A stretch of 35,970 bases of DNA from Methanosphaera stadtmanae. GTDB lineage: Archaea > Methanobacteriota > Methanobacteria > Methanobacteriales > Methanobacteriaceae. The stretch spans positions 1 to 35,970 of the forward strand of contig SUTP01000005.1 of the NCBI GenBank assembly GCA_015062815.1, given 5' to 3'. The notes below the pieces were generated by a model. That model was not told the origin of the DNA. It did no database searches and was given only the letters and a program-made list of their open reading frames with translations. Below are positions 17,920-24,807 of this stretch, one piece after another; within the stretch, counting starts at the first letter, position 1; each line of letters starts with the position of its first letter. The translations under genes were made by a program, and so were the position numbers.

Positions 17920-19113
17920 ATGTTACAAATAGCAGTAACCGGTAAACCAAATGTAGGAAAATCCTCATTTTTCAGTGCAGCAACATTATCTGAAGCTGAA
18001 ATAGCCAATTACCCCTTCACAACAATTGATGCAAATAAAGCCATAGCTTATATTACAGCTAACTGTCCATGTAAAGAACTTAATGTGACATGTAATCCAA
18101 GAACCAGTAAATGTGAAGATGGGATAAGATACATACCTGTGGAATTAATTGATGTTGCAGGATTAGTTCCTGGAGCTTATGAAGGAAAAGGTTTAGGTAA
18201 TCAATTTTTAGATGATTTAGGTCAGGCAAGAGCATTATTGCATGTTATTGATGCATCAGGGTCTACTGATGAAGAAGGTAATCCCGGAGACCCTGGCTCA
18301 CATGATCCATTGGAGGATGTCGATTTTTTAAAACATGAAGTAACCATGTGGGTATACTCAATACTTGAAAGAAACTGGTCAAGACTCATCCGAAAAGTAA
18401 TGTCCGAACATTTAAATTTTGCAAAAGTAATTTCAGAACAATTAAGTGGAACTGGAGTTATGATTGATGATGTATTAGAGGCAGAACGTAGATATCCTAA
18501 TAAAGAATATGATAAATGGGAACAAGAAGATATTTTAGATTTCCTGGAAATATTACTTTCAATAGCAAAACCCATCATAATAGTTGCAAATAAAATAGAC
18601 ACACCACAGGCTGAAGAAAATATTAAACGTTTAAAAGAAAAATATGAACGAGTAATTCCAACAAGTGCTCAATCAGAACTTGCACTGGTAAACGCAGCAA
18701 ATGCAGGTTTAATAAAATATAAATCTGGTGATGACCATTTTGAAATTCTAAAAGAGGATAAATTATCAAGTAAACAAAAAATGGCTTTAGAGTATATTGA
18801 TAAAGAAGTTCTAAAAAAATATGGATCTACAGGAGTTCAAGAAACATTAAATATGGCAGTTTATGATGTACTTGATCAAATAGTAGTATATCCTGTAGAA
18901 GATGAACATAAATATTCTGATCAAAAAGGTAATATTTTGCCTGATGCATTACTGATACCAAAAGGCTCTAATCCAAGAGATTTGGCTTATTGTATTCATA
19001 CAGATATTGGTGAAGGATTTACTCATGCAATAGATGCAAGAAAAAATATGAGAATTGCAAGTGACCATGAACTTGAACAATCAGATATTATCAGTATAAT
19101 ATCAAATAAATAG
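17920..19113 (+). CDS. ychF: YchF/Obg-family GTPase (archaeal YchF)
   Basis: TRAFAC-class P-loop NTPase of the Obg/YchF family, thought to act on ribosomes or in stress responses. Residues 8-15 form the P-loop (GKPNVGKS), YPFTTIDAN near 31-39 is the G2 region, DVAGLVPGA is G3 and ANKID is G4. A canonical NKxD suggests GTP, unlike the NMxE of bacterial YchF/OLA1. A TGS domain occupies the C-terminus (about 340-397). An insertion with four Cys within 17 residues (C49, C51, C58, C65) is notable. AGGAGAT precedes the ATG. The next gene starts 10 bases after the stop, so it is co-transcribed with the pseudo-dehydrogenase and cfbD. Confidence 0.93.
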
Positions 19114-19122
19114 GGTGTAACT

Positions 19123-20289
19123 ATGAAAACAGTCATATATCCAGATAAGGATACAGATCTTTCAAAATATGAATATATAAATTCTGAAATAATAATATAT
19201 GATAAAACAGGTAGTATCGACACTACTTTTAATAAAACTGATTCTGAGGACATATTTTCTAGTGTTGAAAATATTATTTTAACACAAAACTGTATAAAAG
19301 ATGGAGCATATGATATTAAAGCATTAAAAGAAGCATGTGGTAACATTTCGGATAAAATAAGAGGTGATGCTCTTATAGTTTTTGATACATTAGTTCCACC
19401 AAGAACAGTTTTTAAAATGTCAAAAGTAATAGATGAATATGATTTGATGCCTGAATTAAATATTGCTTATACATCTCTTATAAAAGAAGATACTCGTGTA
19501 ATTGCAGGTATTAATGAATCCAGTTTAGATAAAGTAAGACAATTATATGAAAATCAGAATGAAGATATTAAGGAAGTAAAACATATACAAACAGCTGAAA
19601 TAATTCCTATATTACAAAATACTTATAAAGATACATTAATAGCATTATCTAATCAAATAGCAATTCTATCAGAAGCATTAACTGTTGATTTAATTGAAGC
19701 TATAGATTTAGCTAATTTAAAAGAGGATATTCATTTATTAAATCCACAACCTGTATTAAATCAGGAAATAATAAGAGATTCAAATGAAATAGTAGATTTA
19801 GCAAATGAATATGGTGAAGCTTCACAATTATCTGAAACAACACGTAGTACTAATAACTATGTACCTTATCACATGGCTTACATGGCTGAAAAAGAATTAT
19901 TCTTAAAGGAACATTTAGCAATGTTTGAAACAACAGTAGCAATACTTGGAGTAACAAATGATGATGAACTCATAACACAATCAGATAATGCCTCTTTAAT
20001 ATTAATTGATGATTTTGTACAAAGAGATGTTGAAGTAGGGGTTCATGATGATAAAGTAACTAAAGAAATTATTGAAAGTCACGGAGCAAAAAAAATAACA
20101 ATGGAAGAAGCATATGATGCAGACTGTATTATAGTAATGACTGATACAGAGGAATATCGTAACATAGATCCTGAAAAAGTACAAAAAGTCATAATAACAG
20201 CTCTTCCAATTTTAGACCCTGAAAAATTTAAAGATGTAGAATTTAGTAGTGTAGGACAATATAGACTAAAAGAAGGTGAAATGTTATGA
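19123..20289 (+). CDS. Degenerate UDP-glucose/nucleotide-sugar dehydrogenase-like protein (probably non-catalytic), coupled to cfbD
   Basis: A 388-residue protein whose middle and end follow the UDP-sugar dehydrogenase plan: DTLVPPRTV (about 88-96, matching STVPPGTT), [19 protein letters not shown] (125-143), [20 protein letters not shown] (158-177) before a SEAL helix, and a C-terminal domain starting TVAILGV (271-277). Several catalytic features seem lost: the N-terminal Rossmann domain is short with no GxGxxG, the EaxKxxxN lysine is replaced (EIIPILQN), and the GGxCxPxD cysteine loop reads [11 protein letters not shown]. It probably binds a ligand or partner rather than oxidising a sugar. 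It follows ychF by 9 bases (SD GGTG) and overlaps cfbD by 4 bases (ATGA). A role in F430 synthesis is inferred from coupling only. Confidence 0.65.
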
Positions 20290-21353
20290 TACATCCAAGA
20301 CCCAGTCCAATAGCTGCAGCATTATATACGCTAAGAGATATGGAAGTTGATGTTATAGTAATGCATGGACCTGCTGGATGTTGTTTTAGAACGGGTAGAT
20401 TATTAGAGGATGAAGGTATACGTGTCATTACAACAGCTATGGGTGAAAATGATTATATCTTCGGAGCTGCACAAAAATTAACTGATGCAATTATAGAAGC
20501 AGATGAAAAATTTCATCCTAAAAATATAGGTGTTGTAGGAACATGTGCAAGTATGATAATTGGTGAAAACATGCATGATGCTGCACGTGATGCTGGTGTT
20601 GGGGCAAATATAATTGTGGTAGAATCTCACGCAGGATATGCTGATGGAGATAATACTGCTGGAGCAATACTTGCATTAAATGCAGCAAAGGAATCTGGAA
20701 TAATTGATGATGAAGAAGTAGAAAGACAAACAGTAATGTTAGAAAAAGCAACCGAACTTGAAAAATCAAGGGGTATGGCTAAAGGTGAATACATTCAACC
20801 TGATTATGGTGATAATAAAGTTAAAATTGCAAAAATAATTCTAGATGCACTAGAAAATGGTAAAAAAGTTTCAATTGTATTAAATGCTAAAAAAGAAACT
20901 AGCTATTTATTTGCAGATATTATGAAAATACCCTGGAGTAAATATTATCCAGATAATACACCAGTGTTCATTGGAAATTTGGATGAAAATATAGGTTTAC
21001 CTTATATAAAACATCATGCTATAGTAGTAAACGAAAGTGTAGATAAAAAAATGGATTATATAACTGGTGGACTAGATGAATATCCTGTTACAGGAGATAA
21101 AGCACTAGAAATCTTAAAGGATTTAGAATCTGATTTAGTAATAGTTCTTGGTGTACCTCACGCTGTTGATGTAAGTCAACTTGATACGACAACAATTGCC
21201 CTTACTGATGGTCCGAGATTAGTAAAACCATTAAGAGATATGGGTTTTACATATGTGGTAACTGAATTGGATGCCCATTCAAAGACTTTGGGTGCTAAAG
21301 GGATAGTTGCTTCCGAATTTGCAGAAACATTAAGAGGTTTACTAGAATCCTAA
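20286..21353 (+). CDS. cfbD: Ni-sirohydrochlorin a,c-diamide reductive cyclase, catalytic subunit CfbD
   Basis: NifD-like subunit that, with the NifH-like CfbC, carries out the reductive cyclisation of nickel-sirohydrochlorin a,c-diamide on the way to coenzyme F430, the cofactor of methyl-CoM reductase. It begins with the family's HPRPSPIAA and has [13 protein letters not shown] (C32, C33) and [12 protein letters not shown] (C87), likely iron-sulfur ligands. At 355 residues it is shorter than nitrogenase NifD, as expected for this group. cfbC, cfbA, cfbB and cfbE are not in the window. The ATG overlaps the preceding gene's stop as ATGA, pointing to coupled translation. A T-rich stretch near 21387 follows. 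Confidence 0.93.
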
Positions 21354-21487: not shown

Positions 21488-23281
21488 GTGAATATAGTAG
21501 TTATAGGTGCAGGAGCAGCGGGAATGACTGCAGCTTCCAACATCAGAAAATTCGATGAGCAATCACAAATAATAGTATTTACAACACAGAAAAATGTAGC
21601 ATATTCTCCATGTGCAATTCCTTATGTAATTGGTGGACACATAGACAGTTTTGATGATATCATAATGCATAAACCAGAAGACTATTTACGTAAAAACATA
21701 AGGGTCTTAACTGAAACAACTGTGACAAACATAGATAATGATGTTACAGAAGTAGAATATGAAGATAAAAACGGTAATAAACAAGTCATAAAATATGATA
21801 AATTAGTCATAGCAACTGGTGGAAAACCATTAATACCACCAATACCTGGAAAAGATCTTGAAGGAGTATTCAAAGTTAGAACAGTAGAAGATGGAGAAAA
21901 AATCCTAGCTTATGCTGAAAAATCTAAAAATGTAATTCTCGTAGGTGGGGGAGCTATTGGTTTAGAACTTGGTTCTGAATTATCAAATAAGGGGCTTTAT
22001 GTTACAATAGCAGAAATGATGCCACAATTATTCCCACGTTCATTTGATCAAGAAATGTCTGATAAATTCCAGGAACATCTTGAAGCCAATGGAATAAAAG
22101 TATTAACAAGTTCGGCAGTAGAATCAATTAATGGTGATACAAAAGTAGAATCAGTTACAATTGATGGTAAAGAACAAGCTGCTGACATGGTTATATTATC
22201 TACTGGTGTAAGATCACAAATAGAATTAGCAGAAAGTATAGGCTGTGAATTAGGACAATTTGCAATCAAAGTAAATGATCATATGGAAACTTCTGTTGAA
22301 AATGTTTATGCGGCAGGAGATTGTGTAGAAGTAGTTGATGCAATTACTGGTAATATAACTCTTTCACCATTAGGTACAACTGCTGTAAGACAAGGTATTG
22401 TAATTGCTAAAAACATAACTGGACATGATGTTTCATTTAAACCTGTATTAAATTCAACTGTATCACAAATAGGAGATATGGAAATGGGTGCAGTTGGTCT
22501 TACACAACAAGCTGCAGAACAACAAGGACTTGAAATAGTAACAGCAAGTATAGAAGCTTCCTCAAGAGCAAGATATTATCCTGGAAGTAAACCAGTATTC
22601 TTAAAACTAGTTGCTAAATTAGATGGAACAATCATCGGTTGTCAAATATTTGGAAAAGAAGCAGTAGCTGAAAGAGTAGATACTTTAACCGCAATTATTT
22701 CACAAGGACTAAATGTTGATGAAGTAGTAAGCATGGAATTCTCATATGCTCCACCAGTTTCTAGTGTAATTGATCCTATAGCAATTGCAGCTGAACTTTG
22801 TCTTGAAAAATTATATGAAATAAATCCAGATTTATACACAATAACTGAAGAAGAGGCTACTGAAGATGTTGATGAGAAAATTAGTGAAGAGAATACTGAA
22901 AAGGTATCTGAAGAAACTACTGAAGAGAAAACTCCAGAAGATGAACATCCTGTAGATGAATCACCTGCAGAAGAATCTTCTGAAAATGAAACTGAAGAAA
23001 AATCTGAAGACACTCCAGAAAAATCTCCTGCTGAAGAAGTTCCTAAGGAAGAAGTTATCGAGGAAAAAGCTACTGAAGATGAACCTACTAAAGAAGATGC
23101 TCCTATAGAAGAGGTTGCTGAAGATAAATCTGAATCACCAGAAGCTACTCCTGAAGAAGATGTAGTTGAAGATAAAGATACTCAAAAAGATCAGGAAAAT
23201 AAAGAATCTGAAGAATCTGATGATGATTCTGAGGGTGAATCTTTCACAAGTCAATTAAGAAAAGAAGGACTTATAAAATAG
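21488..23281 (+). CDS. FAD-dependent pyridine nucleotide-disulfide oxidoreductase (CoA-disulfide reductase/NADH oxidase type) with Glu-rich tail
   Basis: Residues 1 to about 448 match the CoA-disulfide reductase/NADH oxidase/peroxidase group: FAD motif GAGAAGMTAA (about 7-16), the single redox cysteine C42 in YSPCAIPYV, an NAD(P) motif VGGGAIGLELGSEL, an AAGDC motif and a C-terminal dimerisation domain with YPGSKP. It probably reduces a low-molecular disulfide, sulfur species or O2 with NAD(P)H; the substrate is not determined. From about 450 to 597 the chain is unlike the family: a low-complexity tail rich in Glu, Ser, Thr, Pro and Lys, ending in a basic SFTSQLRKEGLIK. The start is GTG with GGGTGA four bases upstream. 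It is transcribed alone, with a hairpin terminator over its stop codon. Confidence 0.85.
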   Translation: MNIVVIGAGAAGMTAASNIRKFDEQSQIIVFTTQKNVAYSPCAIPYVIGGHIDSFDDIIMHKPEDYLRKNIRVLTETTVTNIDNDVTEVEYEDKNGNKQVIKYDKLVIATGGKPLIPPIPGKDLEGVFKVRTVEDGEKILAYAEKSKNVILVGGGAIGLELGSELSNKGLYVTIAEMMPQLFPRSFDQEMSDKFQEHLEANGIKVLTSSAVESINGDTKVESVTIDGKEQAADMVILSTGVRSQIELAESIGCELGQFAIKVNDHMETSVENVYAAGDCVEVVDAITGNITLSPLGTTAVRQGIVIAKNITGHDVSFKPVLNSTVSQIGDMEMGAVGLTQQAAEQQGLEIVTASIEASSRARYYPGSKPVFLKLVAKLDGTIIGCQIFGKEAVAERVDTLTAIISQGLNVDEVVSMEFSYAPPVSSVIDPIAIAAELCLEKLYEINPDLYTITEEEATEDVDEKISEENTEKVSEETTEEKTPEDEHPVDESPAEESSENETEEKSEDTPEKSPAEEVPKEEVIEEKATEDEPTKEDAPIEEVAEDKSESPEATPEEDVVEDKDTQKDQENKESEESDDDSEGESFTSQLRKEGLIK

Positions 23282-23304: not shown

Positions 23305-23355
23305 AAAACTTTTTTTTAAGCTATATTTTTTACAAAAACTTATTACGTGATATTC

Positions 23356-24807
23356 ATGTTTGATGATTTAAATATAGATGATTATGATTACATAGATTTT
23401 GGATGTTCTAATGGGAATAGTATCCGTTTTGGTGTGGACAAATTCAATGGAATAAGGGGTATTGGTGTTGATATAGATCCAAAAAAGATTGCTAATGCTA
23501 ATGAACGATTAAAAGATACACAAGCTCATCGTGGGGAACATATTGCTATTAATTATGATGTATTAAATTTAGATGATGATAGTTTTTATAAGAAATTCCG
23601 ATTCACTACTTGTATTCACTTTTTAGAACATTTGTTTGGTTTTGTTGATGCAAAAAAAGCTATTGAAACAGCAATTAAATTCAGTAAGGAATTTGTTTTT
23701 ATCACACAACCTTTTGCAGATAAGGATGTTGAGTTATTTAATCAAAACTTAAAAACATATTATAGTGATTGGACAGGTCATACTAATCTGATGACATCAT
23801 ATGATTTTTATAGAATATTAAGAGATTTCCAAAATAATGGGCTTATTAAAGAGTTCATAATTTTTGCCAATACTCCCATTTTAGATAGTTCTTCTCCGTT
23901 TATTCATCCATTATCAGCACCATATAATAAACATGAATATAATGAAGAATTACCTCCTAAAGACACTTCCATTAAATTTGAGGGATTATATAAGGATATA
24001 GGTGCCTTTTTAATAATTGATGAGGATATTCCTATTGATAAATATTATAAAAATGTAACGGGTGATAAAAAAATTCTTTATGATTCTAGAAAACCAGTAT
24101 CTTATGATTATCTTGACTTTGGTTCTGGTAAAGGTGATAGTGTAAGGTATGGTTCTGATAAATTTGGTGGACATCAGGGTTTAGGTATTGAAATAAATCC
24201 TAAACTTGTTGAATTTGCTAATAAATCGTTACGTGAAAAATTCGGTAAAAAGTATGCTGTTAGAAAAGGAGATGTTTTTAATTTAGATAATTCTAAGTTT
24301 AATAAGTCCTATCGTTTTACAACAGCTATTCACTTTTTAGAAGTTTTAAATGATGAATTAAATGTTAAATTAGCAATTAATTATGCTATTAATTTTAGTA
24401 AGGATTTTGTTTATCTTGCTCAGCATAATATGGATCAGAATCCTGAACTTAATAAGATGGGTTTAAAATATTTCTATGCTGATGGAAATTTTAATTTGAA
24501 GACATCTGAAGAATTTAAAAACATGTTTGAGATTTTCAAGGAAAATAATATCATTAAGGATTTTGTTATTTTTAATTCTAATCTAATTCCAGATAGTTCA
24601 TCTATATTTGTAATTCCATCTTCATCTACTCTTGATAAACCATATGATGTGGAAAAATTCCCTCCTAAGGATATGGATATTAGTTTTGATGGAATTTATG
24701 AAAATCTTGGAATATTCTTAATTCTTAAGGATAATGTTGCTGTTGATAAATATATCAGTAATGTTAAGGGTGAAAAGAAAATAATTTATGATTCCCGAAA
24801 AAATTAG
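23356..24807 (+). CDS. Tandemly duplicated SAM-methyltransferase-like protein, function unknown
   Basis: A 483-residue protein made of two related halves of about 240 residues. Each has a class I methyltransferase-like start (DYDYIDFGCSNGNSIRFG; SYDYLDFGSGKGDSVRYG), an acidic strand end (GIGVDIDPKK; GLGIEINPKL), a FTTxIHFLE segment, a PPKD...F.G.Y...G.FLI block and an ending YDSRK. The second half has the more canonical glycine loop (GSGKG). I choose the ATG at 23356, with GTGAT four bases upstream, over an in-frame GTG at 23347. No signal peptide or membrane segment is visible. It is flanked by its own terminators, so context gives no function. Possible substrates such as a glycan or a small molecule are unproven. 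Confidence 0.6.
   Translation: MFDDLNIDDYDYIDFGCSNGNSIRFGVDKFNGIRGIGVDIDPKKIANANERLKDTQAHRGEHIAINYDVLNLDDDSFYKKFRFTTCIHFLEHLFGFVDAKKAIETAIKFSKEFVFITQPFADKDVELFNQNLKTYYSDWTGHTNLMTSYDFYRILRDFQNNGLIKEFIIFANTPILDSSSPFIHPLSAPYNKHEYNEELPPKDTSIKFEGLYKDIGAFLIIDEDIPIDKYYKNVTGDKKILYDSRKPVSYDYLDFGSGKGDSVRYGSDKFGGHQGLGIEINPKLVEFANKSLREKFGKKYAVRKGDVFNLDNSKFNKSYRFTTAIHFLEVLNDELNVKLAINYAINFSKDFVYLAQHNMDQNPELNKMGLKYFYADGNFNLKTSEEFKNMFEIFKENNIIKDFVIFNSNLIPDSSSIFVIPSSSTLDKPYDVEKFPPKDMDISFDGIYENLGIFLILKDNVAVDKYISNVKGEKKIIYDSRKN

Follow-up and report, generated by a model that had tools for sequence, protein, structure and literature searches.

The protein DHX, encoded immediately upstream of cfbD in Methanosphaera stadtmanae, is on the sequence evidence a pseudoenzyme of the UDP-sugar dehydrogenase superfamily maintained under purifying selection, and not the product of a decaying pseudogene. 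We consider it likely that DHX represents a genus-specific, non-catalytic and probably dimeric binding protein placed in the ychF-cfbD gene cluster of Methanosphaera, a genus of gut Archaea comprising human and ruminant methanogens. In full-text literature searches, neither the DHX gene nor any pseudoenzyme among UDP-sugar dehydrogenases was found to have been described. An initial annotation had taken the protein for a repurposed, catalytically dead dehydrogenase relative, and this part of its proposal is supported, the gene being retained under selection and located in one tight cluster with cfbD.

Results

Gene order and junctions

Within the window, i.e. the entire stretch of 35,970 nucleotides analysed, the cluster starts with ychF (17920-19113, + strand), which encodes a YchF-type, Obg-related GTPase consisting of a G domain and a TGS domain (PF08438, PF01926, PF02824) and scoring 599.5 bits with NF007171 (cut-off 387). 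A gap of 9 bases (tagGGTGTAACTatg; 19114-19122, + strand) containing a GGTG stretch resembling a ribosome-binding site leads to the ATG-started DHX reading frame of 388 codons (19123-20289, + strand). It is followed by cfbD (20286-21353, + strand) for the 355-residue catalytic subunit of Ni-sirohydrochlorin a,c-diamide reductive cyclase, which TIGR03282 identifies unambiguously (544.5 bits; cut-off 268.4). Length of the protein, coordinates, ATGA overlap and the identity of cfbD had all been given correctly in the initial annotation.

The DHX gene ends in GGTGAAATGTTATGA, with the ATG of cfbD located inside the stop overlap such that ATGA is common to both genes. Its final codons, GGT-GAA-ATG-TTA-TGA (20275-20289, + strand), can be read in two ways, namely as the C-terminus Gly-Glu-Met-Leu-stop of DHX and as the start signals of cfbD, that is, the ribosome-binding site GGTGA and the start in ATGA. 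This GEML/ATGA junction is found in 18 of the 19 Methanosphaera loci, the most divergent species having GGTGA...TAATG, and GGTGA occurs in all 19. Since the same codons constitute the ribosome-binding site of cfbD, GEML may be conserved for reasons other than the function of the protein; to judge from the sequence, conservation of the tail is in part forced by that site. The overlap is ordinary operon packing, because the 9-base gap separating ychF and cfbD where they are direct neighbours in two other genera likewise carries GGTGA. The spacing, taken on its own, suggests co-transcription of DHX with cfbD, and the two genes are probably also translationally coupled. A scan for sigma-70-type promoters, the consensus of which is not suited to an archaeon, yielded as many matches as expected from shuffled sequence.

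Further downstream, positions 21488-23281 of the window encode a flavoprotein resembling CoA-disulfide reductases and NADH oxidases, which carries at its C-terminus an acidic tail of about 150 residues that is rich in E/P/S and probably disordered; the length of this reading frame varies from 485 to 537 amino acids across Methanosphaera species. Between the flavoprotein gene and argG, positions 23347-24807 encode a 486-residue protein with two similar methyltransferase-like halves (PF13649 matched twice), a gene that was not seen at this place in the other Methanosphaera loci examined.

Domains and catalytic motifs

Pfam profiles recognize in DHX the central domain (PF00984; 42.4 bits, cut-off 25.4) and the C-terminal domain (PF03720; 34.5 bits, cut-off 30) of the superfamily, whereas the N-terminal NAD-binding domain PF03721 remains below threshold (17.9 bits, cut-off 27) with only profile positions 91-141 being matched. 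The protein can be divided into (i) a degenerate N-terminal Rossmann domain (residues 1-115; 19123-19467, + strand), delineated by the alignment, the sub-threshold PF03721 match and predicted strands and helices, (ii) a central helical domain (residues 155-263; 19585-19911, + strand), assigned from PF00984, conservation and predicted helices, and (iii) a C-terminal Rossmann-like domain (residues 271-372; 19933-20238, + strand), assigned from PF03720 and the motif columns. With TIGR03026, the model for nucleotide sugar dehydrogenases, DHX scores 102 bits (curated cut-off 189.8) and two of its orthologues score 86 and 98 bits, as compared to 433-441 bits for active relatives; NF040825, the equivalog model for UDP-N-acetyl-D-mannosamine dehydrogenase, yields 83.1 bits (cut-off 750).

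The motifs were compared in an alignment of 18 distinct DHX orthologues with 21 active WecC-like relatives, in which they are invariant. In all 18 orthologues, (i) the NAD loop GLGHIGLPTA containing GxGxxG is deleted, in the DHX of the window along with most of the first helix, (ii) the PERALP loop with its Glu-bearing PER is deleted, (iii) the Lys position of AEMVK is occupied by Pro, Thr or Cys and never by Lys (Pro in 16 of them; P162 in the DHX of the window), (iv) the Cys position of GGHC is occupied by Ile, Thr or Val and never by Cys, the stretch that once formed the Cys loop (about residues 208-221 of DHX) being rewritten, and (v) YKGNVADARE, the motif located in the UDP-binding domain, is devoid of its Arg, the C-terminal domain of DHX having neither the Arg nor the Lys of this motif. 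The loss of GxGxxG, Lys and Cys loop, previously noticed in the single protein of the window, is hence confirmed as a common property of the orthologues, and the absence of both the catalytic Cys and the catalytic Lys favours the view that DHX is catalytically dead. Other features are retained: VPPRT (P92, P93) persists in the N-terminal domain, and the positions shared with active relatives also include A158, E159, N177, N198, P208, R241, N244 and H250. Conversely, 14 positions (at high stringency) have switched and then become fixed in DHX, as exemplified by V-to-Y16, A-to-K38 and K-to-D280.

Predicted fold and nearest relatives

When the PDB is searched with DHX using phmmer, the first match is 4r16, the UDP-ManNAc dehydrogenase from Pyrococcus (E = 2.4e-15). 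AlphaFold2 provided with DHX orthologues alone yields a model with pLDDT 67.7 and pTM 0.49, in which the outer domains but not the central domain are predicted confidently, and for which Foldseek again places 4r16 first. When active relatives, which may impose their fold, are added to the alignment, pLDDT rises to 92.4 and pTM to 0.88, and the best PDB match is once more 4r16 (E = 2.7e-21; TM 0.76 by query length). With relatives in the alignment, DHX is thus predicted to adopt the three-domain fold of UDP-sugar dehydrogenases, as its initial classification in this superfamily implies. In the model, the central domain features predicted helices at residues 155-186 and 235-263, while the strand-helix-strand unit with which the NAD domain opens has shrunk to strand 2-6, helix 13-16 and strand 22-26, which is consistent with a loss of NAD binding.

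In a maximum-likelihood tree, DHX forms a single clade (100/100), the stem of which measures 1.96 substitutions per site. The clade joins the methanobacterial WecC-like enzymes, and the TuaD-like enzyme and two other dehydrogenases of the genome are excluded (100/100); weakly supported (83/61) is the branching order that would tell whether the WecC-like copies of Methanosphaera or those of other genera are nearer. DHX shares about 30-36% identity with full-length methanobacterial homologues, compared with 18-19% for the TuaD-like enzyme of its own genome. 'WecC-like' is to be understood as a best-match label, as the methanobacterial enzymes satisfy TIGR03026 but do not reach the equivalog cut-off for UDP-ManNAc dehydrogenase (NF040825; 364-390 bits, cut-off 750). 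The UDP-glucose dehydrogenase outline initially ascribed to DHX therefore holds with respect to the superfamily fold, but its nearest relatives are WecC-like enzymes and not UDP-glucose dehydrogenases.

Conservation and distribution

The DHX reading frame is open over its 388 codons in every genome carrying it. The Methanosphaera orthologues share 52-73% identity, and 84 positions are invariant across the 18 distinct sequences. Median pairwise dN/dS (NG86; approximate, as dS is high) is 0.142 for DHX, 0.104 for cfbD and 0.056 for ychF. Conservation peaks in the pair of long helices of the central domain, where the commonest residue reaches a frequency of 0.84-0.88, and in the C-terminal tail, while the C-terminal domain is conserved as well.

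A profile search over 152 Methanobacteriota genomes (20 from Methanosphaera and 132 others) detected DHX in 19 of the 20 Methanosphaera genomes (577-727 bits); the remaining one is 77% complete, and cfbD was likewise not found in it. None of the 132 other genomes yielded an orthologue, the top score outside Methanosphaera being 211 bits, and the matches there being mostly full-length dehydrogenases of about 410-465 residues. The order YchF-DHX-CfbD is preserved in all 19 Methanosphaera loci, so that the linkage of DHX to YchF is no less strict than that to CfbD. The expected adjacency to cfbD thus holds in Methanosphaera but in no other genus searched. In addition to the two genera with the 9-base gap, ychF and cfbD are adjacent with longer gaps in two more lineages. 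That the two genes are already neighbours in sister genera suggests, as the simplest reading, that DHX was inserted into a ychF-cfbD cluster already in place.

In none of the 19 Methanosphaera loci was a sugar-nucleotide gene seen near DHX, and neither cfbC nor cfbE was seen beside cfbD in the loci examined. Downstream of cfbD, Methanothermobacter-type genomes carry a sugar-1-phosphate nucleotidyltransferase/cupin gene, hisH and an AIR-synthase-like gene, which makes the neighbours of cfbD a poor guide to F430 function. The fused nucleotidyltransferase/cupin gene followed by hisH recurs after cfbD as a conserved arrangement in several Methanobacteriota other than Methanosphaera (L088:7123-8733; corresponding positions in L081, L082, L084, L089 and L090).

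Discussion

The sequences compared here show that an ancestral archaeal WecC-like gene, or a copy of it, became placed between ychF and cfbD prior to the divergence of the Methanosphaera species sampled. Its product lost the ability to bind NAD, every catalytic residue and the main ligands of the sugar nucleotide, and has been under purifying selection ever since. The central helical domain is the dimer-forming part of UDP-sugar dehydrogenases. Because the three-domain fold and this central dimer core are retained, DHX probably works as a non-catalytic dimer binding either another protein or a ligand, and its presumable co-transcription and translational coupling with cfbD would simply follow from its position in the cluster. 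As to the nature of the partner, we see about an even chance that it lies outside both nucleotide-sugar and F430 metabolism; that it is another nucleotide-sugar enzyme, or that DHX serves in sensing nucleotide-sugar metabolism, is possible though not favoured, and CfbD or the late F430 steps appear an unlikely target.

By analogy with other pairs of pseudoenzyme and enzyme, DHX might be a regulatory or stabilizing subunit of an active nucleotide-sugar dehydrogenase with which it forms mixed dimers through the common central domain, although we do not regard this as likely. Its descent from this enzyme family fits such a role, as do the preservation of central-domain positions that are invariant in active relatives (R241, N244 and H250 among them) and the occurrence of a WecC-like enzyme and a TuaD-like UDP-glucose dehydrogenase in most Methanosphaera genomes. 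However, DHX never lies near a sugar-nucleotide gene in the 19 Methanosphaera loci, and it is kept in the single-contig genome G014 and in G001 and G003 (97-99% complete), in which no match for a WecC-like enzyme was found. Hence, DHX is not simply the regulator of the WecC-like enzyme, and a role tied to that enzyme only is unlikely. Other dehydrogenases are left in G014 and G003, and the TuaD-like enzyme is the only one beside DHX in G001; a role with UDP-glucose dehydrogenase is possible.

The initial annotation had proposed that DHX serves CfbC and CfbD as scaffold, carrier of a precursor or regulator, or takes part in the handling of nickel tetrapyrroles. Such a role, which might for example consist in conveying the CfbCD product to CfbE, we consider rather improbable. 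Strict adjacency to cfbD and the putative translational coupling speak in its favour, yet linkage to YchF is equally tight, and we know of no role for YchF in F430 biosynthesis. The evolutionary rates initially appear to lend further support: the Methanosphaera stem of CfbD amounts to 1.67 times half the mean outgroup distance, compared with 0.73 for YchF, 0.71 for ArgG and 0.31 for CfbC, and at sites invariant in the other outgroups CfbD has changed at 13.6%, versus 4.3% in Methanobrevibacter-like genera, with a similar excess for CfbE (26.5% versus 12.8%). When 20 gene families serve as the control, however, the median ratio is 1.30, revealing that Methanosphaera is fast overall, and CfbD (1.51) and CfbE (1.45) fall among unrelated genes at 1.43-1.60, one of which was annotated by eye as HemC-like. 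The acceleration of CfbD, strong against three controls but only fifth among the 20 families, was hence not accepted as specific evidence for a newly gained partner. A mirror-tree link between DHX and CfbD was likewise rejected: the partial correlation, 0.74 when YchF is controlled for (n = 18), is lost with more genes, and the distances of DHX co-vary most strongly with those of an M50 peptidase (0.85, versus 0.47 for CfbD; n = 8).

Moreover, DHX accompanies cfbD only in Methanosphaera, and all other genera make F430 without it, the pathway being present in all Methanobacteriota according to a 2026 survey (PMC13135261); CfbD itself is described as a homodimer (PMC12176620). Neither the proposed role for CfbCD nor that in nickel-tetrapyrrole handling is supported, given this restriction to one genus, the greater age of the YchF-CfbD pair, the equal linkage to YchF and the location of the Methanosphaera genes for CfbC (partial in G011) and CfbE elsewhere than the DHX cluster; both genes occur in 15 of 15 outgroup genomes checked, all of which are devoid of DHX. 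In G003, cfbE (G003:C2:53828-55139) appears to be split into two pieces that overlap and have stops within the matched region, pointing to either an assembly error or a frameshift. A functional link between DHX and CfbD is possible though not favoured; the specific variant in which DHX would assist the final F430 steps in Methanosphaera only, as a dimeric docking or carrier protein between the CfbCD product and CfbE that would explain the raised rates of CfbD and CfbE, is in our view improbable.

That DHX is an enzyme with a different activity, independent of NAD and Cys and relying on a remodelled pocket, is quite improbable: the 14 positions that switched and then became fixed would be in line with such remodelling, but no grouping of polar residues suggestive of a new catalytic site was recognized, and conservation is strongest in the helical dimer region. 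Finally, the notion that DHX is a decaying pseudogene or chance reading frame retained only for the ribosome-binding site of cfbD accounts for the nearly invariant final codons with their start signals, but is refuted by the selection result, in that 388 open codons, dN/dS near 0.14 and 84 invariant positions are beyond the reach of a 15-base signal.

DHX is a clean case, with a single origin, presence in an entire genus, loss of all catalytic motifs and selection intact, and thus a good subject for studying how enzymes turn into binding proteins. Should DHX in fact touch CfbD or F430, it would be a lineage-specific factor added to a pathway thought to be complete. It also calls for caution, as the tight operon and the ATGA overlap, which had suggested a link, are accounted for by the insertion of DHX into a gene pair that predates it.

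When compared with known systems, DHX is closest to archaeal UDP-N-acetyl-D-mannosamine dehydrogenases (WecC-like; NF040825, PRK11064; 4r16 from Pyrococcus horikoshii), with which it shares the closest sequences, the predicted three-domain fold and a common node in the tree, but from which it differs by its shorter chain (388 versus about 430-440 residues) and by being devoid of GxGxxG, the PER loop, the catalytic Lys and Cys, and the Arg of the UDP motif. UDP-glucose 6-dehydrogenases (TuaD-like/Ugd; human UGDH) belong to the same superfamily and have the same fold, whereas DHX forms a separate clade without the catalytic residues. To CfbC, CfbD and CfbE, DHX bears no sequence relation, the common point being the gene cluster with cfbD and its overlapping junction.
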